From assembly GCA_018609965.1 (NCBI GenBank), contig JAHENP010000050.1, forward strand, positions 1-15,886: a stretch of 15,886 nt of DNA. Reading direction: 5' to 3'. Below are positions 1 to 15,886 of the stretch, piece by piece. A program made the translations under genes and the position numbers. Under the pieces are notes generated by a model, which saw nothing but the letters and a program-made list of their open reading frames with translations, searched no databases and was not told where the DNA came from. The stretch is from Haloferacaceae archaeon. GTDB lineage: Archaea > Halobacteriota > Halobacteria > Halobacteriales > Haloferacaceae. Numbering within the stretch: the first letter of the stretch is position 1; each line of letters begins with the position of its first letter.

Positions 1-88
1 GGACATCGCGGACTCCGCGTCCAATTCGGAGTCGGACATCGCGGACTCCGCGTCCAATTCGGAGTCGGACATCGCGGACTCCGCGTCC
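1..88 (-). repeat. 33-bp in-frame tandem repeat at the end of the membrane protein gene
   Basis: Positions 1-33 and 34-66 are identical 33-bp units (each starting GGACATCGCGGACTCC on the plus strand). The first 22 bases of a third unit match at 67-88, after which the copy degrades. The array probably continues past the left edge. In the minus-strand gene it encodes the acidic 11-residue unit DAESAMSDSEL in frame. Confidence 0.95.
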
Positions 89-2463
89 GGTTCAGGGTCG
101 TCTCTGCCCGTCAAGCGCTGTAGCACGACAACTGCACCCAGCCACGATGATAAGAACGACGCAACCACCGCGAGCGGCAGATACGGCGTCACACTCTCTG
201 CCCGTCCGATCACCCCTAACAACGGGAGCAGGAGTACGACGAGGGTCACGGTGACCGCGATGAGAACGTCTGCTACGACGCGTCGAGAGAAGTACGCACC
301 CAGCCCCGGCGAGGACTGCGTCGTCACCTGCAACTCCGACTCGTCGAGACGGTTCTGGAGGAACTGTTCGACATCGTCTGGCTCGACATCACCCGTCTCG
401 GCGTCGTTTAGACTTGCGACGACGTTCTCGGTGGTCTCGATGGCTCCGGCGAATGTCGACTCTCTGAGGCGCATATCTTCGATACCCCCCGAACGCCACC
501 AGCGCCACACCGTGTTCAGCGCGTCTCCCTGTCCGGTGAACACCGCTATCGGAGACCCCCACGCCAGAACCGTCACAGCCGGGGGGATCGCTGTCGCGAG
601 GAGAAGCTGCCAAACCGAGACCTGGAGCCCCGGACCGTTCTCAGCGACACCGACAAACGCCGCCGGCCCACCCAGAACAACCGTAAGCCGACGGGTCAAG
701 ACACCGAGAGCGGCACCGAACTGTCCGAGGAGAACGATCGTTCCGGCGACGGCGACAAGCGTGAGCAGAACGCTCACGGCCGGGAACAGCCGTCGGAGAT
801 TCGTCTGGAACCGTTCGCCAGTCCGGCGAACTGTCGGGGGCTCTCGATCGTTGCCGACGAACGGGAGTCCGTCGCGACGCCGGGAAGGTCCGAGCGCCTG
901 TTCGAGTGCGTTCTCGATCCACGCTGCGGCGCGCACGTGCCCCAGGCGCTCCTCGACCGCGTTTTCTTCCAGAGACGACATCTGGTCGTCGATAGTCGCT
1001 GTGGCATTTTCCAGCCGAATCTGATCGAGTCGTCGTTTCGCCTCCCCGGTCGTCGTCACTTCGTCCGTCGTTTTGCTGTATTTGATGTGGACGTCCGCGT
1101 CTCCGCTGATCTCGTCTCTGCCACTGCCGGCAACCGCGACACTGGTGCCGTCGGGCCAGCGTTCGCGAACGGACTTGACCACACCCATCGCCGTTGTCCG
1201 GTCCGGAACAGCCAGTGAGACCTGATCTATGTCCACCAACTCGGCTGTTTCCTGTTCGTCGTACGGCCAGACACGCTTGACATCTGCTTCACCGCGAAGG
1301 ATGTCGAACTCTGGCTGTGTGGCAGTCGGGTCAACCTGCCAGTCTTGTCGGCGAATCTCTCTCGCCACCGCCTGCGCACAGTACTCGAGAAACCCACCCG
1401 GAGGTGACTCGTCGACAGAGACATCCGCAATCTCTTGTTCAGGGTTGGGCCGCCTGACGTTGAGGTAACACCGGAACGTCCCCGCTTCGGGGTCTGCAAA
1501 CAGGCGGAGATTACTCTTGTAATCCTCTTTCGCCGACGGTCTATCACTCCACGACGGCGGTGACTGGCTGGCGTCGTTGTCGAGACGCTGGGTTCCCGTG
1601 TCGCCGTTGAATATCCGAACTCGAGTCGGAATCGAGTGGACCGAGTCGTTCGGGTTCCGGTCAGCGCCGGTGTCTGCATCGTCACCCTTCCGGCGGTCCG
1701 GCGTCCGTTCGTCCGGTTGTTCGGTGGTCGCGCCGTGGTCACCCGCCTCTGTCTCCACGGTACCTCGCTCCCCACCTGCTGTCCGTTCGTTCGGTTGTCC
1801 GGTCGCCGTGTCGGAACTGCCCGTCGTTCGGTCTGTCCTCTCTGCGTCTCCGCCTGACGGTTGTTCGGTTGTCGAGTCAAAGCCGGTCGTCGGTTCCTCC
1901 GTGGCCTCCCGTCGTCCGTCTGGTGTCTGCTTGTTCGACTGCTCGGTGGCGGAGTCTATCTCCGAACTCCCGTCGTCAGCTAAGTTGACCAGTTCTACAC
2001 CGTCCTGGCCGTCGTCGATCAAGATGCGGAAAGGAATGTCACTGGGACGAGCCCACATTTCTTGCTGATACACTGCAATGGGGTTCTTGTCACGTCTCCG
2101 GAAGACGATTCGTCCGGCCGTGTCGGCATCGGGGACGGCGACGACCTCTGACCCGTCTACGTTGTCTACATTCCTGTCATCGACGCCGGTACCTTCCCTC
2201 TCGCTCAGCGGACCCAACAGGCCGGTCGCCGTCTCGTTGTTGATTTCGTCAATCTCAGTCACGAGAATCCTTCCGCAGGCGTGTAAGCTCTCGGCTTCGG
2301 CGACGCAGTACACCGTGTCGTGCTCGGGGACCTCAAACTGAACCGCGAGGCGGTCACCGTCCCACAACAACACAGTGTGTTCGAGTTGTTCTTCGTCGAA
2401 CAGCTGCTCACTGCTGTCTCCGTCGATCCGAACGCCGTTCTCGTTACACAGCATCACTGTCAC
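1..2463 (-). CDS. Large membrane protein of the tubulin-like/GTPase locus, C-terminus beyond left edge
   Basis: I do not recognise the family. Reading the minus strand from GTG at 2463 gives 821 codons with no stop before the left edge, so the gene is partial at its 3' end. Residues 1-170 form an acidic folded-looking region. Residues about 171-275 are a Thr/Glu/Gln/Pro/Arg-rich linker with imperfect repeats such as TTEQP, TGQPNERT and TTEQPDERT. Residues 280-550 are a second soluble region ending in a charged helical stretch. Four likely membrane segments follow at about 562-580, 616-640, 732-752 and 761-782. The tail from 783 on carries an 11-residue tandem repeat (DAESAMSDSEL). GTG at 2463 was chosen because a GGAGGTGA ribosome-binding site lies 6 nt upstream; GTG 2457 and ATG 2454 are alternatives. 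It begins 2 nt after the GTPase gene, so the two are probably co-transcribed and co-translated. It may be a membrane scaffold or partner for the GTPase. No signal peptide is seen. Confidence 0.85.
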   Translation of the reverse strand, partial: MTVMLCNENGVRIDGDSSEQLFDEEQLEHTVLLWDGDRLAVQFEVPEHDTVYCVAEAESLHACGRILVTEIDEINNETATGLLGPLSEREGTGVDDRNVDNVDGSEVVAVPDADTAGRIVFRRRDKNPIAVYQQEMWARPSDIPFRILIDDGQDGVELVNLADDGSSEIDSATEQSNKQTPDGRREATEEPTTGFDSTTEQPSGGDAERTDRTTGSSDTATGQPNERTAGGERGTVETEAGDHGATTEQPDERTPDRRKGDDADTGADRNPNDSVHSIPTRVRIFNGDTGTQRLDNDASQSPPSWSDRPSAKEDYKSNLRLFADPEAGTFRCYLNVRRPNPEQEIADVSVDESPPGGFLEYCAQAVAREIRRQDWQVDPTATQPEFDILRGEADVKRVWPYDEQETAELVDIDQVSLAVPDRTTAMGVVKSVRERWPDGTSVAVAGSGRDEISGDADVHIKYSKTTDEVTTTGEAKRRLDQIRLENATATIDDQMSSLEENAVEERLGHVRAAAWIENALEQALGPSRRRDGLPFVGNDREPPTVRRTGERFQTNLRRLFPAVSVLLTLVAVAGTIVLLGQFGAALGVLTRRLTVVLGGPAAFVGVAENGPGLQVSVWQLLLATAIPPAVTVLAWGSPIAVFTGQGDALNTVWRWWRSGGIEDMRLRESTFAGAIETTENVVASLNDAETGDVEPDDVEQFLQNRLDESELQVTTQSSPGLGAYFSRRVVADVLIAVTVTLVVLLLPLLGVIGRAESVTPYLPLAVVASFLSSWLGAVVVLQRLTGRDDPEPDAESAMSDSELDAESAMSDSELDAESAMS

Positions 2464-2465
2464 CG

Positions 2466-4124
2466 TCAATCACCTCCGAGCCGCCGGTCGAGTTGCCGGT
2501 TCCCCATCCGGTCGAGTAGGTGTCCCGCACCACGGAGCGGGTACCGGCCGTCTCCGTCCTCCGTCTTCAGAATCTTCTCACCGCGGTCTTCTCTCCCCTC
2601 AACCTCGAAGTGGACTGGAATCACCTTGTCCTGCAGTGAGTCGTCCGTCGACGTGCCGATGAGCTCGTTCCCGATGGTGTCACCGAACTCGTCCCAGTCA
2701 CGGGTCGTGTCGACACCGTGCTCCAACTCACAGTGCCGCTTCACGATGTCGGCCTTCGTCCCCACCGCGAACACGTCTTTCTCCGTTCGATACTTCCTGG
2801 CGACCTGTCGGAGCGACTCTACGTAGTCCTCGCGTCCGCGTGGTGTCACAACCTCGGTGCCATCGATGTCGACGTATTCCGGAACAGTCCCCCCAGTGAC
2901 CGCCTCCTCCGCAAAGTCGTCCATCGGGTACAGGAGACCGACACTGTCGGAGTACGCTACGATGTCGTGGAGTAGCTGCAAGACAACTTCCCGGTCGTTA
3001 TCCAACTGCTTTAGTTCCGGCACTTCCTCCGGGTTCTTCCCGTCTAACTGTCCGCCTCCTGTTGTTTCGTCGGACTTGTTGTGCATGTACGCCGCCACGT
3101 CGAACGCCTCGTCGATGTCGGCTGTCGCCGCGTTCTCTGGATCGATCGGTTCGAAGTTCTCGATGTGGTTTCCGGCGTAGTCGATGGTTCTGACAGTCAC
3201 CTTCCGTGGGAGGAGACGGCCGTGTTTGAACGTCATCCGGAGCGGCGGAACGGCCTCTGTGTCTGTCGACCTGAACAGTCCCTCTTGATCGAGTTCTCTA
3301 CGCAGTTCCTGCAGCGGTCTGTTGAGATCGTAGTCACCGTCCGAGTAGTCGTCGAGGGACATGGCGAGTCCGGCCATCGTCGCAGTCTTTCCCGTCCCGG
3401 TTGCGCCCAGAATCGTCACCTCCCTGTCTGCGGTTGCGTCCTTGAACCACCAGACCGTGCCGAGGAACACGGTGACCACGGCGGCGTTGTAGAGCCACTG
3501 TCCGTCGCCGGGCGCGATGAACACGAACGGCTGGAAGAACACGTCTCCGGCGCGGTAGACCAACGGGCTGTCGTAGACGACGAGCGACTCCACCAACACC
3601 GTCACTCCGACGACGGATAGGATGTTGAACAGCCGTGGCACCACGTTCGGAAACTCCAACCAAGACACAGTTCCCGACTGTTTGAACACGTCGTGGCCGG
3701 GGCCGCCTCGAACCGTGATCCCGCCGCCGACGACTCCAGAGACGAGGCCGAGCCCCGCCGCTTGCCTGTGTGCGAACCAGTCGACCCGGGCGATTCCGGC
3801 CTGGTTCATCAACAGAACACCGCCGACCGAGACCAACAGCAACACCAGCCCGTTGAACCGTCTGTACCGGTCGGCCGTCATCAACAGAAACAAGCCGAAC
3901 ACGAGCGTCGCGGCAAAGACGACCGCTCCCTCCGGCGAGAAGCCCAGCAGATCGCCGACTGTGAAAAAGAGGTGGTAGGAGAGTCCGCGTGGGCCCTGAC
4001 TGTACTCCTGTCCCACGAATCTGGCCACCTCGAGCCCGGAGATTAGACTGACGAGGCTAAAAAACACCAGCGAGAGAATCTCACGACGGCTGACACTGCT
4101 GGTGCCAACACCGTTCACTGACAC
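2466..4124 (-). CDS. Membrane-anchored P-loop GTPase
   Basis: Predicted 552-residue nucleotide-binding membrane protein. About six hydrophobic segments occupy the N-terminal half (roughly 16-36, 67-83, 92-107, 121-137, 165-184, 211-227), followed by a cytoplasmic P-loop domain. The Walker A/G1 motif is GATGTGKT at 240-247. A G3-like DYAG sits at 315-318 after a beta-strand (VTVRTI). A G4-like TKAD sits at 456-459 in the strand VFAVGTKAD. This set favours a GTPase over a AAA or ABC ATPase; GTP specificity is inferred. The start is GTG 4124, which lies about 26 nt after a TTTTTTATT TATA element, giving a leaderless transcript. The longer reading upstream to 4487 runs through the promoter and antisense to the tubulin-like gene, so it is rejected. 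It is divergent from the tubulin-like gene and 2 nt ahead of the large membrane protein. A distinct GTPase is a known genomic partner of FtsZ-like proteins of this type. Confidence 0.88.
   Translation of the reverse strand: MSVNGVGTSSVSRREILSLVFFSLVSLISGLEVARFVGQEYSQGPRGLSYHLFFTVGDLLGFSPEGAVVFAATLVFGLFLLMTADRYRRFNGLVLLLVSVGGVLLMNQAGIARVDWFAHRQAAGLGLVSGVVGGGITVRGGPGHDVFKQSGTVSWLEFPNVVPRLFNILSVVGVTVLVESLVVYDSPLVYRAGDVFFQPFVFIAPGDGQWLYNAAVVTVFLGTVWWFKDATADREVTILGATGTGKTATMAGLAMSLDDYSDGDYDLNRPLQELRRELDQEGLFRSTDTEAVPPLRMTFKHGRLLPRKVTVRTIDYAGNHIENFEPIDPENAATADIDEAFDVAAYMHNKSDETTGGGQLDGKNPEEVPELKQLDNDREVVLQLLHDIVAYSDSVGLLYPMDDFAEEAVTGGTVPEYVDIDGTEVVTPRGREDYVESLRQVARKYRTEKDVFAVGTKADIVKRHCELEHGVDTTRDWDEFGDTIGNELIGTSTDDSLQDKVIPVHFEVEGREDRGEKILKTEDGDGRYPLRGAGHLLDRMGNRQLDRRLGGD
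2470..2477 (-). promoter_or_regulatory. Strong Shine-Dalgarno for the 1-2463 gene
   Basis: The minus strand reads GGAGGTGA, close to a full complement of the archaeal 16S 3' end. It lies inside the last codons of the GTPase gene and 6 nt before GTG 2463. It decides the start of the downstream gene and indicates translation from a polycistronic mRNA rather than a leaderless one. Confidence 0.8.
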
Positions 4125-4131
4125 AGCTAAC

Positions 4132-4144
4132 GAGTCGGGGACTC
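4132..4144. promoter_or_regulatory. Small inverted repeat between TATA box and GTPase start
   Basis: GAGTC-GGG-GACTC is a perfect 5-bp inverted repeat located between the minus-strand TATA element (4146-4157) and the GTG start at 4124, where a repressor would block initiation. It is short and could be chance in this GC-rich DNA. Confidence 0.25.
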
Positions 4145-4145
4145 C

Positions 4146-4157
4146 GAATAAAAAATC
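4146..4157 (-). promoter_or_regulatory. TATA element of the GTPase/membrane-protein operon
   Basis: The minus strand reads GATTTTTTATTC, an AT-rich block in GC-rich surroundings. Its centre is about 26 nt upstream of GTG 4124, the spacing expected for an archaeal TBP site driving a leaderless transcript. Confidence 0.7.
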
Positions 4158-4228
4158 TGCCGATACGGCTACCCCGTGCCGGCCGTGAGAGTGCGTCGGC
4201 GTGTGGTTAGTATCTACACCGTCGGTAG

Positions 4229-4236
4229 GTTTATTT
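4229..4236 (+). promoter_or_regulatory. TATA element of the tubulin-like operon
   Basis: The plus strand reads GTTTATTT. Transcription would start about 25-28 nt downstream, at 4258-4261, on the cluster of GTG codons that begins the tubulin-like protein. It is back to back with the minus-strand TATA element about 75 bp away, giving a compact bidirectional promoter region. Confidence 0.7.
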
Positions 4237-4260
4237 GCCACGGCTGGCGAGCGGAGAGTG

Positions 4261-7200
4261 GTGACAGTGAGCACGCCGGACACGGTAATCGGGTTGGGCG
4301 GAGCAGGCAAGGAGATCGTCTTCCACATGCTCGAAGGCTCCGACGCGACGGACGGCTGGCTCGTCGAACAGCTCGTCGACTCGGAGACGGGCGGTGGGAT
4401 GGACGTGTTCGCCGTCGACACGGAGCAGAAGAACAGTCGGAAAGCCGAGTTCCAACGGCGCGCATCCGAGCTCAACGAACGGATCAAGCGGCTCGCGGAC
4501 CAACGAGCGGAGCCGGTCGAGCAGCCGACGATCAGCTACGTCGATCTGGTCGAGAACGCACAGGTGGCGGGCCACCAGTTGTTGGCAGACGCCATCGTCC
4601 GGGGGTTCGCCGAGCCGGAGCAGTCCCGGCTCCAGTGTTGGTGGTACGACGAGAGCAACCTCGACCGCACGACCAACTACAACGACGGAGTCGACCGCAG
4701 ACGGTCGCTCGCGAAGTCGTTGTACTACGCGAACCGAGCGGGCCCCGACCCGTTAGAGGAGATCGTGCAGTCGGTCGCCGGCGGGCAGAGTGTGAAGCTC
4801 GTCGTCGGAATCGGTGGTGGAACCGGGTCGGGGGCGCTGCTGGACCTGGCGCGTGACCTCGATCGGGTGGACGGCGCGGAACTGGACCTGTTCGCGGTGC
4901 TCCCGGCCGAAGACGCGAACGAGAACGAACTCGCCAACGCACACGCTGCGTTGTCCGAACTGGAGTATCTCGCGTTGACCGGTCAGAACCCGTTTCGGAA
5001 CATCGTACTGCTCCCGGCCGGACCGGCGGACGACATCGACGAGTTCGACGAGGCGATCGTCCACTCGATGCTCCTCCACGAGCAGATTCCGCGGGTCGGG
5101 AACGCGAACAATCTCAACATGCTCGACGAGAGTATGCAGGGTGGGCCAGACGACTACGCTCCGTTCACCGTCGCGGTGCCTCACATCTTCCGGTACAACG
5201 CCTCCAGCATCAACGCGACACGCGAGAACTTTCGTCAGTATCGACGGGAGAAGCAGAACGTGTGGGAACAGGAACGCCAGTTGTACGACGAGGTGACGGC
5301 GTTTCTCGAACGGTTCTATCCGGCGGTGTACGACGAATACGAACGGTACCGGGAGACGAACCACGACGAATTCAGACTGCTCGAAGGGGAGTTGGTGGCG
5401 ATGGGTCGGCGGTTAGAGGAGATCGAGACGCTCGTCTCGTTGGACGGCTACGGCGGCAGCGCCGACGTGGACGCCATGACACAGGCCGGCTACGAGGTTG
5501 CCGAAGACGTTCGTGAACGGCTCGACGACCACCGAGGGACGATTCTCGTCGGCCACGACTCCGACCGAGAGTCGGCCGAGCAACGCCGGCGGCTGCTCGT
5601 CGAGCGGCTGCCGGACACGTTCCTGAACGACGACGTGGAGCCGCCGAGCGGCTTCAACCGGGAGGAAGACCAGACGTTCCACCGACTCGTCCGCGAGTTC
5701 TTCGAGGTGTTCCGGGAACGGCGGGCGGTGTTGCGTGGGAAGAATCTCCTCGACGACGAGACGGCGTCGGAGGCGCTCGGACGCGCGTTGAACACCGACA
5801 TCTCCGGTGCCGACAGACGGCGATCGCTCAGAGAGACGGCGGCAGAGAAGAACGCCGCCATCGACGACAGACGGAGCGAGGTAGCGGACCTCGAGACTGC
5901 CAGAGAAGTCGCACAGAGCCGGATGGCGGCTCGACTCGACGACTGCCGCCCACAGTTGGCAGACGCCGTCGAGCAACTGATCAGGCTCCGGGAGAACCAG
6001 TCGGAGATAGAGAGCCTCCTCACGGATCTCAGACAGACAGTCGAGACGGCAGTCGACGAGATGAACACGGCCGGCAGTGAGGGGATCACCGTCCGTGGGT
6101 TGGAGTTCGACGAGTTCGGTCGGCTGAACGACCTCCTCGAAGCAGTTGGGATGGAGCCGTTGAACCGGCGGGCGTTCGACACGAGCGTCGAGCGGGCCAA
6201 AAAGGCCTGTTCGGTCTGGCTCGACGAGCGACACGCCGGGGTGCTCGAACAGCTGATCAACGTCGGAAGCCGCGATCCACCGCCGAGCCTCCAGTACGAG
6301 GAGAACCGTGACGAGGTCGACGGGCGTATCGTGCGGCTGCCGCCGTGGGACCCGGACAGTAGCTTCGAAGCGACGGTCAGACTCGATCCGGTCGTCGACC
6401 GGCTCTCACAGCTCCGTGGACTCGACGAGCAGTTGCTCGAACAGATCGTCGCGACGACCGTCCGGTTCGCCGATCCGGATCTCACGCTCGGTGCGGTGCA
6501 GACGGAGGTTCGTGAGTCCGTCTCCGATCCCGACAACCTCACCGGATTGGCACCGCTGACCGTCGACCGATCGGCGATCGAGTCGGCGGTCGAGGCGGAG
6601 TTGTCGGACATCAACGGGCGCCAGGCGGACGAGATGCTGTCGGAACTGACCGCCGAACCGCCGCAGCCGGGGACGCTCACCGAGCTGTTCCACGAGGCGT
6701 ATCTCGGGCCGTTCGACGAACGGATCGACGAGTTGCGCGACGAGATCGAGCAGTTGGAGCAGGAACGCGAGGAGCTTGACCGACTACAGGGGTTGTTGGA
6801 GACTGGCAACCGGCTACGGTCACTCCGAGAGGAGGCGATGGAGCCGACGGCGGTTCCGGAGGCCGAGGAGACGGACGAGGACCGCGGGAGCCACCTGACG
6901 GTCCAGACGACCAACGACCGCGGCCAACTGATTGGCTTCGACGATATCGGCGAGGCGGATCTGTGGGAGGCAGAGCGTGCGTACATCGGTCGCGAACTAG
7001 ACGAGATCGCCACCGAGGTGAACCGTGGTGGCGACGGGTTCCTCCCTCTGCGAACGCGTCGCCCGACACACACGGACGCCGAGCCACCGGAGTACGACCA
7101 GTTCGTCGTGTTCCCAGTCGTCGCGAGCCGGGCACTGGAGGACGTCCACGGGCCGGCGGCCGGGATTCCGGAGTTCGACGAGGTGATCAGAGACGGGGCG

Positions 7201-7617
7201 AACGAGCTCAGGGTGCCCGACCCCAAGTACCAGCCGGTGATGGTCGGCGACGCACCGCCGTGGGATCTCAGTCTGACGGTGTTCGTCGGTGGGGTGTCAC
7301 TCGACAACCTCGCTCCGGCTCGTGACTACCACGCGGCCTACGAGCGGGAACGGGAGACGACCCGAGAGAGTCCGTTCGCACGCAACACCCACGGGCTCGA
7401 CGGGGTCGACGACGGCGACCGCGACCTGTTCGGCGACGACGACGGTGCGTTTCTCTACCGGGAGTCGTTGCTCGACCTCGGTGGGAGAGACGGTGAGACA
7501 GAAGACAGCTACCGACTCCTCGACGAGAGTGAGGGCGCGGTCGTCGACTGGTTGCTCGACCACCACCACGTCGAGACGCTGTCTTCGACCGTGTCGTTCG
7601 ACGGAGACGAGGAGTGA
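4261..7617 (+). CDS. Large FtsZ/tubulin-like GTPase (Tubulin_2-type)
   Basis: Predicted polymer-forming GTPase of the tubulin/FtsZ superfamily, 1118 residues. The N-terminus has the Rossmann-like glycine motif VIGLGGAGKE (9-18). The tubulin signature loop GGGTGSG is at 185-191, preceded by a hydrophobic strand (VKLVVGI). A long helical C-terminal region follows, with likely coiled coils around 322-393, 528-602 and 818-860, and an acidic tail ending FDGDEE. FtsZ is usually 350-400 residues, so about 700 residues are additional. It is clearly not cell-division FtsZ or CetZ but fits the large tubulin-like family (Makarova and Koonin's FtsZ-like proteins). The start is placed at GTG 4261 because the TATA box at 4229-4236 predicts a leaderless transcript from about there; GTG 4258 or 4267 are equally possible, and GTG 4201 lies upstream of the TATA box. 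The stop is 4 nt before the next gene, so the two form an operon. Confidence 0.9.
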   Translation: MTVSTPDTVIGLGGAGKEIVFHMLEGSDATDGWLVEQLVDSETGGGMDVFAVDTEQKNSRKAEFQRRASELNERIKRLADQRAEPVEQPTISYVDLVENAQVAGHQLLADAIVRGFAEPEQSRLQCWWYDESNLDRTTNYNDGVDRRRSLAKSLYYANRAGPDPLEEIVQSVAGGQSVKLVVGIGGGTGSGALLDLARDLDRVDGAELDLFAVLPAEDANENELANAHAALSELEYLALTGQNPFRNIVLLPAGPADDIDEFDEAIVHSMLLHEQIPRVGNANNLNMLDESMQGGPDDYAPFTVAVPHIFRYNASSINATRENFRQYRREKQNVWEQERQLYDEVTAFLERFYPAVYDEYERYRETNHDEFRLLEGELVAMGRRLEEIETLVSLDGYGGSADVDAMTQAGYEVAEDVRERLDDHRGTILVGHDSDRESAEQRRRLLVERLPDTFLNDDVEPPSGFNREEDQTFHRLVREFFEVFRERRAVLRGKNLLDDETASEALGRALNTDISGADRRRSLRETAAEKNAAIDDRRSEVADLETAREVAQSRMAARLDDCRPQLADAVEQLIRLRENQSEIESLLTDLRQTVETAVDEMNTAGSEGITVRGLEFDEFGRLNDLLEAVGMEPLNRRAFDTSVERAKKACSVWLDERHAGVLEQLINVGSRDPPPSLQYEENRDEVDGRIVRLPPWDPDSSFEATVRLDPVVDRLSQLRGLDEQLLEQIVATTVRFADPDLTLGAVQTEVRESVSDPDNLTGLAPLTVDRSAIESAVEAELSDINGRQADEMLSELTAEPPQPGTLTELFHEAYLGPFDERIDELRDEIEQLEQEREELDRLQGLLETGNRLRSLREEAMEPTAVPEAEETDEDRGSHLTVQTTNDRGQLIGFDDIGEADLWEAERAYIGRELDEIATEVNRGGDGFLPLRTRRPTHTDAEPPEYDQFVVFPVVASRALEDVHGPAAGIPEFDEVIRDGANELRVPDPKYQPVMVGDAPPWDLSLTVFVGGVSLDNLAPARDYHAAYERERETTRESPFARNTHGLDGVDDGDRDLFGDDDGAFLYRESLLDLGGRDGETEDSYRLLDESEGAVVDWLLDHHHVETLSSTVSFDGDEE
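7609..7617 (+). promoter_or_regulatory. Ribosome-binding site for the 7622 gene, overlapping the tubulin-like stop codon
   Basis: GAGGAGTGA contains a GGAG core 7 nt before ATG 7622 and includes the TGA stop of the tubulin-like gene. It supports coupled translation and fixes the ATG as the start, although the frame is open further upstream. Confidence 0.6.
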
Positions 7618-7621
7618 GTCG

Positions 7622-8884
7622 ATGGTGCGACTGCCCGCCGGCAGCGCCCGCCGAGCGGAACTGCCGGCACTGATCCTCGTCGCCGTCGCCCTCCTGATCG
7701 GGGCGGTGTTGTACACGGAACTGCTGGTCACAGCGTGGTACCGAGGCGCGTCCGGTCGACAGCTCGTGGTCGCACTGAGTCGGCAGTCCCCGATCGGTAT
7801 CAACGCTTGGGTCGTCGGTCCAGCGGGCGTTGTTGCCGGGTGGCTCGTGGTGTTCCTGTTCGACCGCTCGAAGAAACTCCAGGCCGTGCTCCTCGCGTTC
7901 GCGGCCGCACCGTTTCTTGCCGTCGTCCGTGGGAGCGGTGCGTGGGGGACGGGGGTGTGGCTGACGAGTTGGCCGTGGTTTTTCCCCGGGTTGGTGGTCG
8001 GTGTCGCCACCGCGGTTGGAACCTCGAGGCTGTTGACTGACCGCCACATTCGCGAGTTTCCGGGTGCCGTTGGGCTGTTGACTGTCACCGCAGTCGTAGT
8101 GGCAGTCGTCGGGGTGTACGACGCACACCTGACACGGGCGACGGCACTGGGTGAGATGCTCCGTCACGGCGGCGGGTCGGCGATGTTTCTCGCAGTACTC
8201 GTCGTCTTCGTCCAGTACCAGGATCGTGACGACGTGCTCGTCGTCGCTCCTGACGACGGGACGAGCGCCACGACAGTGTTGGCGGCGTTGTACGACCACG
8301 TCGACGGCCGAACCGGGACTGCGGTGGTCCGTGACCGCCGTCTCACCCGCGCGGTCGCGACACTGCGACAGACCGGCACCTCGGACCGGTCGGGTGACGG
8401 GGTCGAACTGTCGTACCGGCCGGCCGGCGCGTTCGGTCGGTGGGTCTCTGTCCGCGGGAGACGAGTCGACATCTCGCGGACGCCACTCGGCGAGGCGGTT
8501 CGCACACTCCACCCGGATCGGAGCGGCCCGCTGTGGGCCGGCTTCTTCGACACCGGTGTCGACGAGTTCACCGGAGCGGTGGGTCGCTCTCGGGCAGTCG
8601 TGTTGGTGCTCCCCGGGACGTGGCTGGACAACGACAGCACGGCGAGCGGTGTCGCCGATACGGTGGACGGCTACCGGAAGCTCTGTCGAGCGGGACGCCG
8701 CTCCGACACCGAAGTCGTCGTCGTGGTTACCGGCCAGCCGTCGCCGAACGACTCCCCGCGGCTCACCGACCAGGTCGAACGCCTCACCGACGGTGAGATT
8801 GACTGTGCTGTCGTCGGCGTCGGCGTCGACGATGGAACTGTCGTCGGCGCCGACACTGTGTACGAGGCGGTGACGCCTCGGTGA
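7622..8884 (+). CDS. Multi-pass membrane protein with a degenerate GTPase-like domain
   Basis: A 420-residue protein of no recognised family. About six hydrophobic segments (roughly 14-34, 63-80, 86-102, 112-135, 148-166, 185-198) precede a soluble domain from 203 to the end. That domain follows the order of the GTPase at 2466-4124. A strand plus loop, VLVVAPDDGTSATTVLAAL (205-223), sits where the GTPase has VTILGATGTGKTATMAGLA. VSVRGRRVDI (275-284) sits where it has VTVRTIDYAG. VVVVVTGQPSPND (365-377) sits where it has VFAVGTKAD. The P-loop Lys, the DxxG and the TKxD are all missing, so it probably cannot hydrolyse GTP. My reading is a pseudo-GTPase partner of the other membrane GTPase; this is inferred by eye. 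Start ATG 7622 follows the tubulin-like gene by 4 nt, so the two are co-transcribed. It is convergent with the next gene across a 2-nt gap. Confidence 0.85.
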   Translation: MVRLPAGSARRAELPALILVAVALLIGAVLYTELLVTAWYRGASGRQLVVALSRQSPIGINAWVVGPAGVVAGWLVVFLFDRSKKLQAVLLAFAAAPFLAVVRGSGAWGTGVWLTSWPWFFPGLVVGVATAVGTSRLLTDRHIREFPGAVGLLTVTAVVVAVVGVYDAHLTRATALGEMLRHGGGSAMFLAVLVVFVQYQDRDDVLVVAPDDGTSATTVLAALYDHVDGRTGTAVVRDRRLTRAVATLRQTGTSDRSGDGVELSYRPAGAFGRWVSVRGRRVDISRTPLGEAVRTLHPDRSGPLWAGFFDTGVDEFTGAVGRSRAVVLVLPGTWLDNDSTASGVADTVDGYRKLCRAGRRSDTEVVVVVTGQPSPNDSPRLTDQVERLTDGEIDCAVVGVGVDDGTVVGADTVYEAVTPR

Positions 8885-8886
8885 AC

Positions 8887-10677
8887 TCACACCACGGCTC
8901 GACGGTAGTAGCCGACACTGACGACGACGAGGAAGGCGCCGACGAGAAGGAGCGGCAGTGTCGGGAGGGTCGTCAGATACACCGACAGGACGGCGACGCC
9001 GGTGCCGGCCACCGTGACCACCGCCGACAGAAGAGAGGCGATCGAGCGAGCCTGTTCGGTGGTGATTCCCTCTGGTTCCGGCTCCGATTCGGAGTCGTCT
9101 GGGTCGTCGTACTTCGCCCGGCGGACGCTGATCTGTCTCTCCTCGGAACGACGAGCGGCGCCACCGTCGGTGACCCCGCCGGTCGTGTTCTCCGCCCAGA
9201 CGCGCCACTGTCCGGGCTGTAAGTCGAGGCGGGCGGTACCGTCACTGAGTTTTACCTCCTCGTAACCGTCTCGTTCGAGTCGGTCAGCCCGAACCACCAC
9301 GTCCGTGAGCGGGTCGCGGGACGCGTCACCGACGACGTTACACCGTACCCGTTGATCCGACAGGAACTGCCCGTTGTCGGCGTTGGGGAACGACACGACA
9401 GGTTGCTCTATCCCTTCAGCAAGGAGAGTCTCCGTGGCGGTCACCGTGTCGCCGGTCGGGGCTTCGAACTCGACAGTGATCTCGTACTCGCCCGGATTCT
9501 TCGGTGAGAACGTCTCCGTCCCGTCTACGCCGGTCCTGCCGGCTTCGACCTGTGTGCCGTCACGTTCGATCAGGAGCTGTGCGTTCGACACTGGCTCCTC
9601 GTCGTAGTCCCGTTCGACCGACACTGTCACCGTCTCTCCGATGGCAACGGTTGAACCGTCGAGTGAGACCGTGCCGGTCGGTGACGTTGGCCACACGTCG
9701 ATCGACTGGGTGTCGGGGTCGTACTCGTAGTCGTCAGTCGGCGCTGCGGTCGCCTCCAGCTCCGCTTCCCCGGCGGCGGTGAACGTCACCTGCGCCGTCC
9801 CGTCCGTCGCCTCGATCTGTTGTTCGTCTGCAGTTGGTGTACCGACCGAGGTGACTGTCGCGGCGTCGACCGGCTCACCGGCCGCCTCGACAGTGATCTC
9901 TGTCGGTGTGTCCACGGTCGTCAGCGTCGGCGCCTGGAGGTCCAGCCGACGCACGCCGCGTGCCACCTCGACACTGTCTCGCCACTTCTCGAACTGCCAC
10001 CGGCTTCTCGTGTCACCGGGGACGACCACGGGGAGTTCACCGCCCTGTTGTGGGGTGATCTCGGCGACACCGTCGACCGTCGTCTCCGTGCTCTCGTTGC
10101 CGACCCAGACCGTCGCACCGGCGACCGGCTCGTCTTCGACCGCGACTGCAACGGCACTCGGCTGGCCGACAGTCCAGTCGTCTGCCACGTCGACCGTCGG
10201 TTCGACGACCCGCGGCGAGACCGAGACGTGTGTCGTGTCGACTGCCACGTCTATCGCCGCGTTGATCTCGTACTCGCCGGCGGTCTCGATCCGCACGGTG
10301 GCCTCGCCCGTCTCGTCGGTGACAGCCGTCTCGTCGGTCTCCGACACGACAACCGTCGCGCCGACGACCGGCTCCCCGTCGCGGGAGACTGTCACCGGGA
10401 CGGTGCCCGTGTGTGGGTCCGTCGGCGTCTCGACCTCGATTGAAGACGGGCTGTCTGTCTGGTGACCCTCGTGGTCGCCGTCAATGAGCGCCTCCTCGGC
10501 CTCAATAATCTCGTAGAACGCATCGCGTGCCTCCCGTTTCTCCCCCTCGGGGTACATGTCGGGGTTGTACATCGCCTTCGCCTCCGCCGCCGCGATCTCA
10601 ATCTCCTCCAGTGACGCACTCGGCTCGACACCGAGAACGTCGTACGGGTCGTCGGCGAACGGCTCCGGATCACCCAT
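8887..10677 (-). CDS. J-like domain protein with intracellular Ig-like repeats and C-terminal membrane hairpin
   Basis: 596 residues. Residues 10-64 resemble a DnaJ J-domain (DPYDVLGVEPSASLEEIEIA, then NPD at 38-40, then a helix ending FYEIIEAEEAL), but the catalytic HPD is NPD. Residues about 85-515 form roughly five Ig-like (Big/carboxypeptidase-regulatory type) repeats, each with a PVVGATV- or TDETGEATV-like pattern. An acidic stretch (about 521-536) leads to two membrane segments at about 546-568 and 571-591. There is no signal peptide, so the J-like and Ig parts should face the cytoplasm. It has its own TATA element (10705-10716) and an ATG 5-10 nt after the predicted transcript start, although it also follows the second J-like gene by 54 nt. 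It likely anchors or recruits the Hsp70 at 12268-13803 to the membrane. A classical DnaJ has a G/F and zinc region, absent here. Confidence 0.87.
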   Translation of the reverse strand: MGDPEPFADDPYDVLGVEPSASLEEIEIAAAEAKAMYNPDMYPEGEKREARDAFYEIIEAEEALIDGDHEGHQTDSPSSIEVETPTDPHTGTVPVTVSRDGEPVVGATVVVSETDETAVTDETGEATVRIETAGEYEINAAIDVAVDTTHVSVSPRVVEPTVDVADDWTVGQPSAVAVAVEDEPVAGATVWVGNESTETTVDGVAEITPQQGGELPVVVPGDTRSRWQFEKWRDSVEVARGVRRLDLQAPTLTTVDTPTEITVEAAGEPVDAATVTSVGTPTADEQQIEATDGTAQVTFTAAGEAELEATAAPTDDYEYDPDTQSIDVWPTSPTGTVSLDGSTVAIGETVTVSVERDYDEEPVSNAQLLIERDGTQVEAGRTGVDGTETFSPKNPGEYEITVEFEAPTGDTVTATETLLAEGIEQPVVSFPNADNGQFLSDQRVRCNVVGDASRDPLTDVVVRADRLERDGYEEVKLSDGTARLDLQPGQWRVWAENTTGGVTDGGAARRSEERQISVRRAKYDDPDDSESEPEPEGITTEQARSIASLLSAVVTVAGTGVAVLSVYLTTLPTLPLLLVGAFLVVVSVGYYRRAVV

Positions 10678-10704
10678 CGTTTAGTGTCGCTCGTTCAGTT
10701 CCTC

Positions 10705-10716
10705 ATATTTTAAAAC
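10705..10716 (-). promoter_or_regulatory. TATA element ahead of the membrane J-like/Ig gene
   Basis: The minus strand reads GTTTTAAAATAT within the 54-bp gap between the two J-like genes. Its centre is about 34 nt before ATG 10677, giving a transcript with a leader of only a few bases. It implies that this gene can be expressed independently of dnaK and the soluble paralogue. Confidence 0.6.
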
Positions 10717-10731
10717 TTTCGGATTGCCTGT

Positions 10732-12261
10732 TCAGATCTCAACGCCGCTGAGCGTCGTCGTCGTGCCGACCCAGCGTTCCGCTGGGTGTGTCACGGTCAG
10801 CGTCCGACTGGTGCCGTCGACCGTGATCGCTGCGCGACCCCTGTCGTCCGTCGTGGCTGTCTCGTCGGCGATCGACACGGTCGCGTCCGGGACGCGCCGC
10901 CCCCACTCGTCGCGCACGACGACACGACACCGCGGGCTCGTGGTGGTCGGGGGGTCGACCACCTCGACTGCCAGCGTACTCCTGTCGGCGACAACTGTCA
11001 GCTCCCGTGTGCCCGGGACGACCTCGGTGTGCGGGCGGTTGTCGCTCGCACGGAGTGTGTACGTCCCCGGCCGAGCGACGGAGAGTGTTGCCTCCCCCCG
11101 GTCGTCGGTGACCGTCTCCGTCACCGCGTCGCCGTCCCGGCGGGCGGCAACCCGGACCGCGGCGGCCGGCTCGCCGGTCGACTCCCGGATCGTCACGCCG
11201 AACTGCTCGTCCGTGTCGACCGTCTCCGGTGCCGACACTGCGAGTTCGACCGACGACGGCACCACCTCGACCGTCCGGGTGGCGGTCGTCGTCACCGTGC
11301 CTGCGACCTCGCGACTGGCCGTCAACTGGAGCTGTCCAGGCTCGGTCGGTCGGATTCGGACCCGGCCGTCCGTCGCCGTCCACGAGCGCCCGTCGGCCGA
11401 CTCCACGGTCGCGTGAGAGACGAGTCTGCCGTCCGACTGCCATCTGACTGCGATCCGCAGGGGTTCGCCGGTCCGCACCGTCGTCTGTGCAAACTCCAGA
11501 CCGATCGCTCCCGACGGCGGCGTGACCGTCACCTGCGCCGTCCCGGTCTGGTCGCCGGCGACCGCGGTGAGCGTCTGCTCGCCCGTCTCCGTGAGCGTCA
11601 CCTGTGCCTCTCCGTCGGTGAGGGTCGTTCGGCCGTCGGGCGTCTCGACGCGACCGTCGACTGGTTCCTCCGCCCCGTCGGTCACCCGGACGGACAGCTG
11701 TTCACCCGCGGCGACTGTCGTCTCCGCCGGCTCGACGACGAGTTCTGGAACAACGGTCACTGTCGTTGTCGCCGTCGCACCGCCGACTGTCGCCGTCAGC
11801 GTCACCTCGGTGGCTGTCTCCGGAGTTGCCCGGTCCGTCGACTTTGTCGCCGCACCCGTCGGCGCCGGTGTCAGCGTCGCACGCCCGTTGCCAATCTCGG
11901 CCGTCACCCCGCCGGCCCGAACCATCCCCTCGTCGGCAGGTGTGTTGTCGAGCATCACGGAGACGGTGACGGACTCACCCGGAGAGATCTGCTCTCGTGC
12001 TGCCGTCACGGTGAGCGTCTCGGTGGCCGTCGGTGCGGTCCGTTCTGGGGGGAACTCCCCGTCTGCCAGCAGTGCGTCCTCGGCGGCGTGGACGAGGTAA
12101 AACCGGTCTCTGGCGGCGCGTTTCTCCGCTTCGGTGTAGTTGTCTGGGTTGAACTGCGACTTCGCGTGCGCGGCAGCCAGTTTCACCTCCTCGGGGGGGG
12201 CGTCCGGTGACACCCCGAGACACTCGTGTGCGGTGTCGGCGGTTAGGTCTGGCTCCGGCAT
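10732..12261 (-). CDS. J-like domain protein with intracellular Ig-like repeats, soluble paralogue
   Basis: 509 residues, paralogous to the 8887-10677 product. The N-terminal J-like domain (about 10-65) aligns with it without gaps: CLGVSPDAPPEEVKLA, NPD again at 38-40, then a helix ending FYLVHAAEDALL. About five Ig-like repeats follow (roughly 75-165, 167-245, 247-335, 336-425, 427-509), rich in Thr/Val and patterns such as TDDRGEATL and TDDRGRAAI. It has no signal peptide and no membrane segment, so it is probably cytoplasmic. ATG 12261 lies 6 nt after the Hsp70 stop without a clear ribosome-binding site, suggesting translation coupled to the Hsp70 gene. The loss of the HPD histidine in both paralogues suggests a conserved, altered mode of Hsp70 interaction rather than a random mutation. 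It might instead bind Hsp70 or the tubulin-like polymer without stimulating ATP hydrolysis. Confidence 0.87.
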   Translation of the reverse strand: MPEPDLTADTAHECLGVSPDAPPEEVKLAAAHAKSQFNPDNYTEAEKRAARDRFYLVHAAEDALLADGEFPPERTAPTATETLTVTAAREQISPGESVTVSVMLDNTPADEGMVRAGGVTAEIGNGRATLTPAPTGAATKSTDRATPETATEVTLTATVGGATATTTVTVVPELVVEPAETTVAAGEQLSVRVTDGAEEPVDGRVETPDGRTTLTDGEAQVTLTETGEQTLTAVAGDQTGTAQVTVTPPSGAIGLEFAQTTVRTGEPLRIAVRWQSDGRLVSHATVESADGRSWTATDGRVRIRPTEPGQLQLTASREVAGTVTTTATRTVEVVPSSVELAVSAPETVDTDEQFGVTIRESTGEPAAAVRVAARRDGDAVTETVTDDRGEATLSVARPGTYTLRASDNRPHTEVVPGTRELTVVADRSTLAVEVVDPPTTTSPRCRVVVRDEWGRRVPDATVSIADETATTDDRGRAAITVDGTSRTLTVTHPAERWVGTTTTLSGVEI

Positions 12262-12267
12262 CGGTCG

Positions 12268-13803
<1,536 letters not shown>

Positions 13804-13830
13804 CTTGCCACCAACTACTGCCGTCACCAG

Positions 13831-13838
13831 AATAAATC
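13831..13838 (-). promoter_or_regulatory. TATA element of the Hsp70 gene
   Basis: The minus strand reads GATTTATT, with its centre about 31 nt before ATG 13803. This predicts a transcript with a leader of only a few bases and excludes the upstream GTG at 13827 as the main start. Confidence 0.65.
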
Positions 13839-13880
13839 TCGCGGTGTTCAGAACGGGGAGGTGACGGCTCTGGGGATTAT

Positions 13881-13903
13881 TTATCGTTAATATATAACAA
13901 TAA
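13881..13903. promoter_or_regulatory. AT-rich inverted repeat, possible operator
   Basis: TTATCGTTA, a 5-base ATATA spacer, then TAACAATAA: 9-base arms with one mismatch, inside an almost pure A/T stretch in GC-rich DNA. It lies about 80-100 bp upstream of the Hsp70 start. It could bind a regulator of the chaperone operon or form a second promoter; there is no direct evidence for either. Confidence 0.4.
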
Positions 13904-14060
13904 TATCAGATAAGTGAGTCAGGTGGGTGATAGACTTTTTACCGGTTCGCACAGAGGCCACCACTCGGAACCGCGCGGGATAGTCCTCGCGCGTCGGAGC
14001 GTCTGCGGCACACGGGTGGAGCGGTGTGGAGCAGTGTCATCTGTCCGTAGCGGGATGTGT

Positions 14061-14708
14061 TCAGTCGGCCACGAACACCTCTGCCTTCTTCACCACCTCG
14101 CCGTCGAGGCGGAATCCGGGTCGTTCAACCTGCAGAACAGTGTTCGACTGGCAGTCGGGGCGTTCGACCGCACGGAGTACTTCGTGGACATCTCTGTCGA
14201 GCGTGGTCCCCGTGTCCGGGTCGATGATCTCGACGCCCTCTGCCGCGAGCACCGATCTGAACTCCTCGCGTGTCAGTTCGACCCCGGCGCGGAGGTCCTG
14301 TTCGGAGTCGCCCGCGAGCCCCCTGCCGAGCGGCGTCCAGACGCGTGTCAGCAACGACTCGACGAGCGACACGGTCGCGCGACGCTTCTCTTCTCTCACT
14401 CGTCGTTCCTTGGCTTCGAGGTACCGATCGACCTCCTCGCGTTTCTCTTCGAGTTCCGTCTCGACGGCCGCCCGTCGCTCCCGTTCCGCTTCGAGTTCCC
14501 GTTCGAGGCTATCGACCTCTTCTTCCAGGCTGTCGATCTCTCGTCGTGCCGCTTCGAGACGCTCTGTCAGTTCCGTGTGGTCGGCACTGTCTGCGTCGTC
14601 TCCGGACGCTTCGGTGTCTGGGGGTTCGACACCGTGTGTGTGGCGGACCGACTCTGTGGCCGGTTCGACTGGCCCGTCAAGTTCGTCTGTCGGATCGTCG
14701 TCCGTCAT
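14061..14708 (-). CDS. GrpE-like nucleotide exchange factor
   Basis: 215 residues; predicted partner that releases ADP from the adjacent Hsp70. Residues 1-45 are an acidic disordered tail. Residues 46-112 form a long heptad-like helix (ELTERLEAARREIDSLEEEV onward), matching the GrpE dimerisation coiled coil. Residues about 113-215 match the conserved GrpE core: LTREEFRSVLAAEGVE, IIDPDTGTTLDRDVHEVL and a final beta-wing ending KKAEVFVAD. The length is close to that of typical GrpE proteins. ATG 14708 was chosen because acidic composition begins there. The frame is open to 14993, but the added 95 residues are Arg/Pro-rich and unlike haloarchaeal protein. No clear TATA element lies just upstream, so it may be transcribed from farther upstream. 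The Hsp70 gene follows after 257 bp with its own promoter. Confidence 0.88.
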   Translation of the reverse strand: MTDDDPTDELDGPVEPATESVRHTHGVEPPDTEASGDDADSADHTELTERLEAARREIDSLEEEVDSLERELEAERERRAAVETELEEKREEVDRYLEAKERRVREEKRRATVSLVESLLTRVWTPLGRGLAGDSEQDLRAGVELTREEFRSVLAAEGVEIIDPDTGTTLDRDVHEVLRAVERPDCQSNTVLQVERPGFRLDGEVVKKAEVFVAD

Positions 14709-15047: not shown

Positions 15048-15500
15048 CTACTGGACGACGCCGGCCGCGGCGGTCGCGTCACCCGCGCCGGGGGTCTCGA
15101 CGGCGGTGAACAACAACGCCGACAACACGCCCAGCGTCTCGTCGCGCTCTGCGGGTGTCAACACGTACGCCTCGCTCGGGACGCCCGTGTCGAGCGCCCG
15201 CGAGTCCGGGAGTTCGTCGTCGCCGACGACTCTCGCGTCCCGCACCTGCTCCATCGCCTCCGCGACTGTCGTGACCAGTTCCAACACCGTCTCGTGGCTG
15301 ACGGTGCCGTGGGTGTCGAGTCGTTGCTGCATGTCCACGCAGGCGGCGACCAACTCCTCGACCCGCGCGTCCGGGAGTGTGGTGTGCCGCAGGTCGTCGA
15401 TAGTCGCGCCGTAGTCCGACTGCAGCTGCTCTGTGGTGATCGCTGTCTGTGCGCCTGTCGCGCCGTCACGCTTTTGTGACGGAGAATCGTTCGAACACAT
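15048..15500 (-). CDS. Acidic helical protein of unknown function
   Basis: 150 residues, not recognised. After a polar N-terminus (1-20) it appears mostly helical: 22-38, 45-63 (DARVEELVAACVDMQQRL), 69-90 and 115-135. It has a small C-terminal Ala/Gly/Val tail. There is no membrane segment, no zinc-binding Cys pair and no recognisable catalytic motif. The acidic composition and haloarchaeal codon pattern support a real gene. Start ATG 15500 is the first in frame. It lies upstream of the GrpE-like gene on the same strand but 339 bp away, so operon membership is uncertain. It sits next to the CRISPR trailer, but nothing in it resembles a known Cas protein. A large inverted repeat (15521-15590) lies just upstream. 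Confidence 0.7.
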   Translation of the reverse strand: MCSNDSPSQKRDGATGAQTAITTEQLQSDYGATIDDLRHTTLPDARVEELVAACVDMQQRLDTHGTVSHETVLELVTTVAEAMEQVRDARVVGDDELPDSRALDTGVPSEAYVLTPAERDETLGVLSALLFTAVETPGAGDATAAAGVVQ

Positions 15501-15618: not shown

Positions 15619-15678
15619 CTTGTTGTTGCAAACAGCAGTGGGTGTCGTTGAGGAAAGTCGTGGCTGTCGTGTGCGGGG

Positions 15679-15886
15679 TCTCTGCTCCCGTAGTGGGTTT
15701 TCTCCACATTGCGACATAGTCAATGAGACTGTCACAACGCCTGTGACAATTGTGTTTCAATCCCGCAGTGGGTTTTCTCCCCGTCGCGACCGCGTGATCC
15801 GTAAGCAACACTCCGAGCGTGTCGTGTTTCAATCCCGCAGTGGGTTTTCTCCCCGTCGCGACACGACTCTGATTCGATCACGTCAC
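15679..15886 (-). CRISPR. CRISPR array, trailer end, continues past right edge
   Basis: Two identical 37-bp repeats lie at 15754-15790 and 15826-15862, separated by a 35-bp spacer. A degenerate copy at 15679-15715 (about 26 of its last 30 bases match, the first seven do not) is followed by a 38-bp spacer. A partial spacer occupies 15863-15886. On the minus strand the repeat ends in ATTGAAAC, the usual 5' handle of crRNAs, so the array is read leftward and the decayed repeat is the leader-distal end. The leader and any cas genes must be to the right, outside the window. The repeat length of 37 differs from the 30-base I-B repeats of many haloarchaea and would fit I-D or III better; the type is inference. 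Confidence 0.93.

Follow-up and report, generated by a model that had tools for sequence, protein, structure and literature searches.

A stretch of 15,886 nucleotides (positions 1 to 15,886 of contig JAHENP010000050.1, assembly GCA_018609965.1 of a Haloferacaceae archaeon; hereafter the window) carries side by side the genes of an FtsZl1-type tubulin-like protein, of an intact and a degenerate membrane GTPase, of a large membrane protein and of a chaperone set. This set consists of a short Hsp70, a GrpE-like protein and two proteins in which a J-like domain is joined to immunoglobulin (Ig)-type domains (J-Ig proteins). We propose, with a probability of roughly 45% and on the grounds of sequence comparison, that a J-docked Hsp70 module has been added here to a membrane-associated device of FtsZl1 and GTPases. 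The combination recurs in other haloarchaeal genera. New features described below are J-like domains devoid of the histidine of the HPD motif, a lidless Hsp70 altered at its J interface, and a domain of the large membrane protein that accompanies most archaeal FtsZl1 proteins examined.

Proteins of the window are called P1 to P9 (Table 1). G and L numbers denote genomes of relatives and loci fetched from them, G000 being the genome of the window.

Recurrence of the combined locus

FtsZl1 tubulins occur in many bacteria and archaea, and we know of no established function for them. We searched 170 genomes of the family and 392 genomes of the order, the latter drawn evenly and with few first-look candidates scored in each. 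An FtsZl1 relative was present at E <=1e-20 in 41 of the 170 family genomes. Neighbourhoods were fetched for all 41 (the window in the case of G000) and for the order-level matches, some of them being cut by contig ends. Their genes were taken from our own codon-score caller and not from annotation; some starts may be wrong, and L107_9 is short at its N-terminus compared with the database record.

An Hsp70 gene lies beside the tubulin gene in five of the 41 genomes, the window included. In G270 (Halobellus litoreus, name inferred) the genes of P1, P2, P3, P4, two J-Ig proteins, Hsp70 and GrpE follow each other in the order and on the strands of the window, with 37% identity between the two tubulins. 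Full synteny in another genus at this level of identity is more than chance. The locus of G044 (Halorubrum sodomense, name inferred) contains P3, P4, one J-Ig protein, Hsp70, GrpE, a vWA-Ig protein, P1 and P2 in changed order and strands. These two loci rule out that the adjacency is unique to this assembly. The remaining two cases are plasmids with circular records, pCBA1112-01 of Haloplanus rubicundus (G258) and p117 of Halorubrum sp. BOL3-1 (G313), where a distinct Hsp70 is encoded within 5.2 kb of FtsZl1, along with GrpE, vWA and a small protein. Neither of them carries a J-like gene of the P5/P6 kind.

With the 59 tubulin loci as starting point, which were collected irrespective of chaperones, the occurrence of an Hsp70 gene within 10 kb in five genomes corresponds to a chance probability of about 7e-5 to 8e-4, or of 0.009-0.035 if these are taken as three origins. 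This assumes that a 3.3-Mb genome has 1.2-2 genes of Hsp70. No additional member of the Hsp70 family was detected in the fetched tubulin neighbourhoods (six duplicate loci omitted). A scan of genome contigs gave at least 12 loci and a scan of viral contigs no relative. For a 95% relative of P6 the longest contig listed has 12,884 bases, and this length is also given for an 88% relative of P1; the two may be a single contig.

Two observations concern the plasmids. On the Haloplanus plasmid, a distance of about 17 kb separates the FtsZl1/Hsp70 cluster from ThiF-family and SAVED-domain genes (L176:1-1915), which we take to be similar to a cyclic oligonucleotide-based antiphage signalling system (CBASS). 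On the BOL3-1 plasmid an FtsZl1 gene is directly followed by a metallophosphoesterase gene (L179:8574-9000), presumably of the same superfamily as the calcineurin-type effector listed by Kaur et al. for GAP1-N1 systems, a class compared with the window in the last section.

Altered J-like domains and Hsp70

The chaperone genes do not form the housekeeping chaperone operon, which is ruled out by canonical DnaK and DnaJ genes located on other contigs of the same genome. P7 is not the housekeeping DnaK, which agrees with an earlier note on the window that treated the Hsp70 as a separate one.

P5 matches the Pfam family DnaJ above its cut-off (32.3 versus 27.8 bits) and P6 below it (16.8 bits, E 0.0074). 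Both proteins match CarboxypepD_reg and DUF4198, P5 also YtkA; no FNIII family was found in either at E <=1 in Pfam. The histidine of HPD is absent in 18/18 J-like domains read, nine in loci and nine in the database. Sixteen of them, including those of P5 and P6, read NPD, one LPD and one QPD, the aspartate being kept in all; P0100 was omitted from the original 19 sequences since it is without a J-like start. Canonical DnaJ reads HPD in G000, G044 and G327.

Special Hsp70s, as distinct from DnaK, fall into type A (window type, six proteins) and type B (plasmid type, two proteins). Residue numbers are those of E. coli DnaK, which we assigned by motif and presume to correspond. All six type A proteins keep D8, K70, R167, E171, D194 and T199, the ATPase residues and R167 thus being present in P7, and all six have proline in place of N170. 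The linker VLLLD is changed in every one of them (GGILD in the window, with isoleucine at the place of L391), and D393 is kept in two of the six. R167 is replaced in both type B proteins, whose loci have no J-like gene. The distance from linker to end is 138-154 amino acids in type A (138 in the window) versus 273-280 in five canonical DnaKs, so type A proteins have no helical lid. P7 is 67% identical between the window and Halobellus; the other genes reach about 22-39%.

In type B proteins (L092:16776-18524 and L107:14579-16204) a Cys/His-rich insert separates the ATPase domain from the substrate domain. Their company consists of vWA, GrpE, a protein of 133-139 amino acids and a protein that by eye is transglutaminase-like, with no Pfam match.

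According to a 2026 review (PMC13254874), H-to-Q or D-to-N change in HPD abolishes the stimulation by J-domain proteins; such proteins are called pseudo-JDPs and their role is described there as not yet elucidated. D35 of the J domain is reported to contact R167 of DnaK, and H33 to touch the DnaK linker at L391 (PMC13012618). Because R167 is present in 6/6 type A proteins and the aspartate in all J-like domains, the former contact could remain in the systems described here. A locus in which Hsp70 and GrpE are accompanied solely by J proteins devoid of the HPD histidine, and in which the Hsp70 is changed too, offers a natural experiment on the role of pseudo-J domains.

The tubulin-like protein and its membrane partners

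P3 matches Pfam Tubulin_2 at E 6.8e-8 (32.6 bits, cut-off 27). Its GGGTGSG loop, at residue 186, is intact, as the earlier note had read it, and is identical in 68 of 74 rows of the alignment, the window included. To judge from indirect profile matches, the C-terminus may contain a coiled coil and a mostly helical domain.

The identification of P2 as a membrane GTPase stands. Its Walker B reads DYAGN, without glutamate, where many relatives have DYAGE. Five of 27 members of the P2 family match Pfam DO-GTPase2 at E <=0.01, the window protein not being among them, and the best of these matches (E 1.1e-5, 25.6 bits) stays under the cut-off of 27. P4 lacks the P-loop and aligns to the P2-family profile over the greater part of its sequence (hhalign probability 100, E 1.1e-44). 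It is a degenerate GTPase homologous to P2, in agreement with the earlier reading.

The conserved domain of P1, about 205 residues long, gave 57 protein matches, composed of 54 from loci (window and five duplicate records included) and three from the protein database. Twenty proteins encoded in the place of P1 or close to it were scanned against Pfam, and no family explained this domain. Proteins in this position carry varied extra parts, such as the PQQ propellers seen in 5 of the 20, which represent a loosely clustered set. A P-loop GTPase of the P2 family and the P1 domain are both encoded within 9 kb of 46 out of 60 FtsZl1 proteins, a degenerate GTPase near 17. On these counts the common core of the archaeal loci is FtsZl1, GTPase and P1 domain, with P4 and the Hsp70 set as additions.

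A vWA gene is absent from the window and was not found in its own, 74% complete genome, nor was a vWA-Ig gene when it was sought in this incomplete genome; vWA is present in loci L089 and L128. Genome G330 has two tandem FtsZl1 genes (L101, G330:C5:412503-419659), similar to the tubulin pairs that Kaur et al. describe from Firmicutes (PMC7159879).

Layout of the window

Contig C50, which makes up the window, belongs to a genome bin of 2.6 Mb. The eight main genes of the window are arranged in three compact blocks, and not in four as previously described: P2-P1 leftward, P3-P4 rightward and P8-P7-P6-P5 leftward. The start of P7 is better placed at 13803 than at 13827, the position given before, and P3 starts with GTG at 4258 or 4261. 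P1 has an N-terminal part with a low-complexity stretch, followed by the conserved domain, and four predicted transmembrane (TM) segments in total. P8 scores 85.4 bits against a Pfam cut-off of 25.8.

Table 1. Genes and domains of the window, with positions on the 15,886-nucleotide stretch
Feature	Position	Strand	Remarks
P1, large membrane protein	1..2454	-	818 aa read; C-terminus cut by contig end
P1 conserved domain	937..1551	-	57 matching proteins, the majority encoded close to the GTPase gene in archaeal FtsZl1 loci
P2, membrane P-loop GTPase	2466..4118	-	4 N-terminal TM segments (predicted); Walker A GATGTGKT, DYAG, TKAD
P3, FtsZl1/Tubulin_2 protein, 1119 aa	4258..7617	+	Pfam Tubulin_2; GGGTGSG loop
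P4, degenerate second GTPase-like membrane protein	7622..8884	+	P2 homologue without P-loop; TM segments predicted
P5, membrane-anchored J-Ig protein	8887..10677	-	J-like (NPD) N-terminus; Ig/CarboxypepD_reg-type domains; 2 C-terminal TM segments predicted
P6, soluble J-Ig protein	10732..12261	-	J-like (NPD) N-terminus; Ig-type domains; no TM segment predicted
P7, special lidless Hsp70, 511 aa	12268..13803	-	HSP70 match, E 3.1e-125
P8, GrpE nucleotide exchange factor	14061..14708	-	GrpE match, E 4.5e-24

At the right end, P8 is followed by P9 (150 amino acids, 15048-15500, minus strand), which has no Pfam match above cut-off, and then by the start or end of an array of clustered regularly interspaced short palindromic repeats (CRISPR) at 15677-15886. 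Three repeats of 37-39 nucleotides, the first degenerate, are spaced by 75 and 72. Contigs C147, C262 and C281 carry the same repeat, and C4 has many copies of a variant. An Rfam scan of the window returned CRISPR repeats only, all sub-threshold. At the left end, the P1 gene has a short tandem repeat at its 3' end (window 1-82), which forms an 82-base overlap with contig C234, on which the open reading frame beyond the overlap resembles by eye an ABC-transporter ATPase.

Proposed mechanism

In the mechanism that we favour, P3, the GTPase pair (P2 with intact motifs, P4 as pseudo-GTPase) and their membrane partner P1 would make up a membrane-associated, GTP-switched device. P5, which is predicted to be tail-anchored, and the soluble P6 would dock the lidless P7 without firing its ATPase. 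We infer docking without a trigger because the aspartate of HPD, partner of R167, is kept and the triggering histidine is absent. P5 would most likely hold P7 at the membrane beside the GTPases and P1, P8 would reset the nucleotide on P7 by exchange, and P7 would bind P3, P1 or an incoming foreign protein. Assembly of P3 would be under GTPase control, with the Hsp70 setting the threshold for assembly or release, as has been proposed for bacterial relatives.

The best hint that P5 links the two halves comes from TM-type J-Ig proteins. They are present in the four genomes that have a P2 GTPase in the cluster (G000, G270, G044, G326) and are missing from G327 and G328; the GTPases of G328 are on other contigs than its chaperone genes.

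A more elaborate version appears quite unlikely as a whole. It would present the locus as a new type of haloarchaeal membrane switch, in which pseudo-J/Ig proteins tether a lidless Hsp70 without triggering it. Released or fired by an invader or by the state of the GTPases, this Hsp70 would gate the assembly of FtsZl1 with its pair of GTPase and pseudo-GTPase. The tubulin theme and the Hsp70 theme, so far reported as separate, would each represent one half of a threshold machine that lineages retain entirely or partly.

Chaperone genes apart from tubulin

The reverse search, from chaperones, employed an Hsp70 profile built from the five tubulin-adjacent proteins and a J-like profile built from three such loci. 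Among the 170 family genomes, eight scored at least 712 bits with the Hsp70 profile and other matches at most 541; with the J-like profile, six scored at least 84 bits and other matches at most 53.5. No Hsp70 or J-like match outside the family passed the set cut-offs in the 392 order genomes, and in 392 genomes of the phylum the J-like profile found the window genome and G044 only. FtsZl1 is encoded within 5.3 kb of the special Hsp70 in five of the eight Hsp70 genomes. The other three, G326, G327 and G328, are congeners of the window.

Several observations weigh against a J-docked Hsp70 module serving the tubulin device. The first comes from these congeners, whose loci were outside profile building and are tubulin-adjacent in 0/3. 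In G326, a GrpE-Hsp70-J-Ig group is followed at about 7-9 kb by a TM-type J-Ig protein, a P2 GTPase and a P1-like gene, with no tubulin or P4 there, and the FtsZl1 gene lies about 40 kb further on. In G328, Hsp70-J-Ig and FtsZl1 are on different contigs. G327, which is 97% complete, has a GrpE-Hsp70-J-Ig operon without adjacent tubulin, and neither FtsZl1 at E <=1e-20 nor a P2-family GTPase at E <=1e-6 was found in it. Secondly, an Hsp70 gene next to the tubulin is missing in 36 of the 41 FtsZl1 genomes, and 34 of them encode no special Hsp70 anywhere. Thirdly, the Hsp70-to-tubulin figures (Fisher 2e-4, adjacency 1.7e-10) are biased by ascertainment, as five loci were found through tubulin and used in the profile; the forward count given above is the fairer test. 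Finally, P7 may not be allosterically normal, since linker and D393 vary inside type A, and canonical DnaJ could drive P7 in trans.

Consequently, the claim of the earlier note that the Hsp70 set belongs specifically to this system and governs assembly of the tubulin-like polymer is too strong and finds no support: chaperone genes of the three congeners (GrpE in two of them) stand without adjacent tubulin, and most FtsZl1 genomes do without such an Hsp70. Its expectation that the two halves co-occur in distant genera is borne out by adjacency in G270 and G044 and, with a distinct Hsp70 and GrpE, on the two plasmids, and fails in G326-G328. As a refutation it had named a neighbourhood analysis in which the halves occur independently and adjoin each other in this genome alone. 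They do occur independently, but their adjacency is recurrent.

The G327 operon (L149:13001-14659) abuts a 44-residue C-terminal fragment of GvpD, a regulator of the PadR type and a gas-vesicle match below threshold, which gives the impression of an insertion into a decayed gas-vesicle locus.

As it also occurs without tubulin, the chaperone module serves some purpose by itself. In an alternative explanation, GrpE-Hsp70-J-Ig would be a self-standing chaperone island, for example for quality control of membrane proteins, that adjoins FtsZl1/GTPase genes in some genomes since both gather in accessory regions and plasmids. The solitary operon of G327, the separation in G326 and G328, plasmid location of the type B sets and the many FtsZl1 loci without Hsp70 fit this explanation. 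It is nevertheless rather unlikely, in view of the eight-gene order conserved in Halobellus and the nearly identical set in Halorubrum sodomense, of TM-type J-Ig proteins that go with the GTPase and not with Hsp70 alone, and of two separate Hsp70 clades that came next to FtsZl1.

Trees bear on the history of the association. The tubulin tree, a quick one without bootstrap and with long branches, groups the window, Halobellus and Halorubrum sodomense (SH-aLRT, Shimodaira-Hasegawa-like approximate likelihood ratio test, 89), with 100 for window and Halobellus. Other chaperone-linked tubulins are placed elsewhere, and the chaperone label needs at least four changes; two of the six chaperone-labelled tubulins, both of BOL3-1, share one plasmid cassette. 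In the Hsp70 tree, for which the program warns of long branches, special clades A (six) and B (two) are both apart from DnaK. Since the two outermost members of clade A are tubulin-linked, loss of the adjacent tubulin in G326-G328 would be the simpler history.

Possible roles of the locus

A defence role would make the locus a threshold-type system against viruses or in other conflicts, in which assemblies of tubulin and Hsp70 contain or kill, in the manner of the systems of Kaur et al. 2020. The parts list is similar to two themes of that work (PMC7159879). Distribution is patchy (FtsZl1 in 41/170 family genomes, special Hsp70 in 8/170), copies are on plasmids, one of them with the SAVED and ThiF-family genes mentioned above, CRISPR repeats adjoin the window genes, and P7 is far more similar between the window and Halobellus than the other genes are. 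On the other side, no GAP1 and no effector domain was recognised, and PADLOC gave coiled-coil and marginal matches only on the window proteins. On 74 of 106 listed neighbour proteins it gave ten families with one member each, without a control. Such a role appears doubtful. PADLOC matches of P8, considered as proof of defence, were dismissed, as they look like coiled-coil matches.

It is improbable that the locus represents membrane remodelling or vesicle machinery, as Makarova and Koonin proposed for FtsZl1, with the Hsp70 set as assembly factor of a large membrane complex: P3 belongs to FtsZl1, TM segments are predicted in P1, P2, P4 and P5 and two relatives have vWA partners, but no recurring link to secretion, S-layer or division genes was seen, although no systematic search was made, and most FtsZl1 loci do without Hsp70.

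Relation to known systems

The canonical DnaK/DnaJ/GrpE machine shares with the window the ATPase residues and GrpE; HPD and the helical lid are missing in the latter. Type IV pseudo-J proteins such as Pam16 (PMC13254874) likewise have a J-like domain without HPD beside Hsp70 at a membrane. They differ from the window, which is archaeal, has Ig-type domains and encodes no HPD-bearing J partner in the locus. CoCoNuT type IV restriction systems (PMC11090510) also combine Hsp70-like nucleotide-binding and substrate-binding domains with vWA in predicted defence loci. They employ McrBC-type GTPases and nucleases, and their description does not mention DnaJ or GrpE in the main text, nor was tubulin seen in the part available to us.

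FtsZl1 and its operons with vWA and GTPase were defined by Makarova and Koonin 2010 (PMC2875224). Tubulin_2 with GGGTGSG and a long C-terminal part, as well as an archaeal membrane GTPase with a TxKD motif, are common to those operons and the window. Genes of Hsp70, GrpE or J-proteins do not appear in the available text of that paper, which mentions in this respect only the fusion of a GTPase with a Cys-rich domain of DnaJ type. The window differs further in having no vWA gene.

The earlier note knew of no description of such a combination. This is right insofar as no tubulin/Hsp70 combination of haloarchaea was recognised as described in open-licence papers, but Kaur et al. 2020 (eLife, PMC7159879) provide a bacterial precedent with GTPase-centred systems, reported mainly from bacteria and 'a few archaea'. 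Features in common are a single GTPase or two paralogues, of which one bears TM helices at its N-terminus, a tubulin with C-terminal extension and, within a separate theme, HSP70 and GrpE accompanied by a DnaJ-fused repeat protein; vWA proteins, membrane proximity and patchy distribution are shared as well. P2 and P4, both with predicted TM segments, correspond to the paralogous GTPase pair. No GAP1 family is among the Pfam matches of P1 or of the 20 proteins at or near its position. We would not file the window in this class, although on paper it would work like one of its members, because no GAP1 or FNIII family was matched, the Walker B glutamate is missing and the Pfam cut-off of DO-GTPase2 is not reached. 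J-like domains without HPD are a further difference.

In the bacterial systems the tubulin theme accounts for about 52% of GAP1-N2 neighbourhoods and that of HSP70/GrpE with a DnaJ-fused FNIII protein for about 14%, and the two do not overlap (PMC7159879). The haloarchaeal window merges these themes, kept apart there, into one locus. As FtsZl1 loci with their own Hsp70 set are also present in named cultured haloarchaea, their function can be tested by gene removal.

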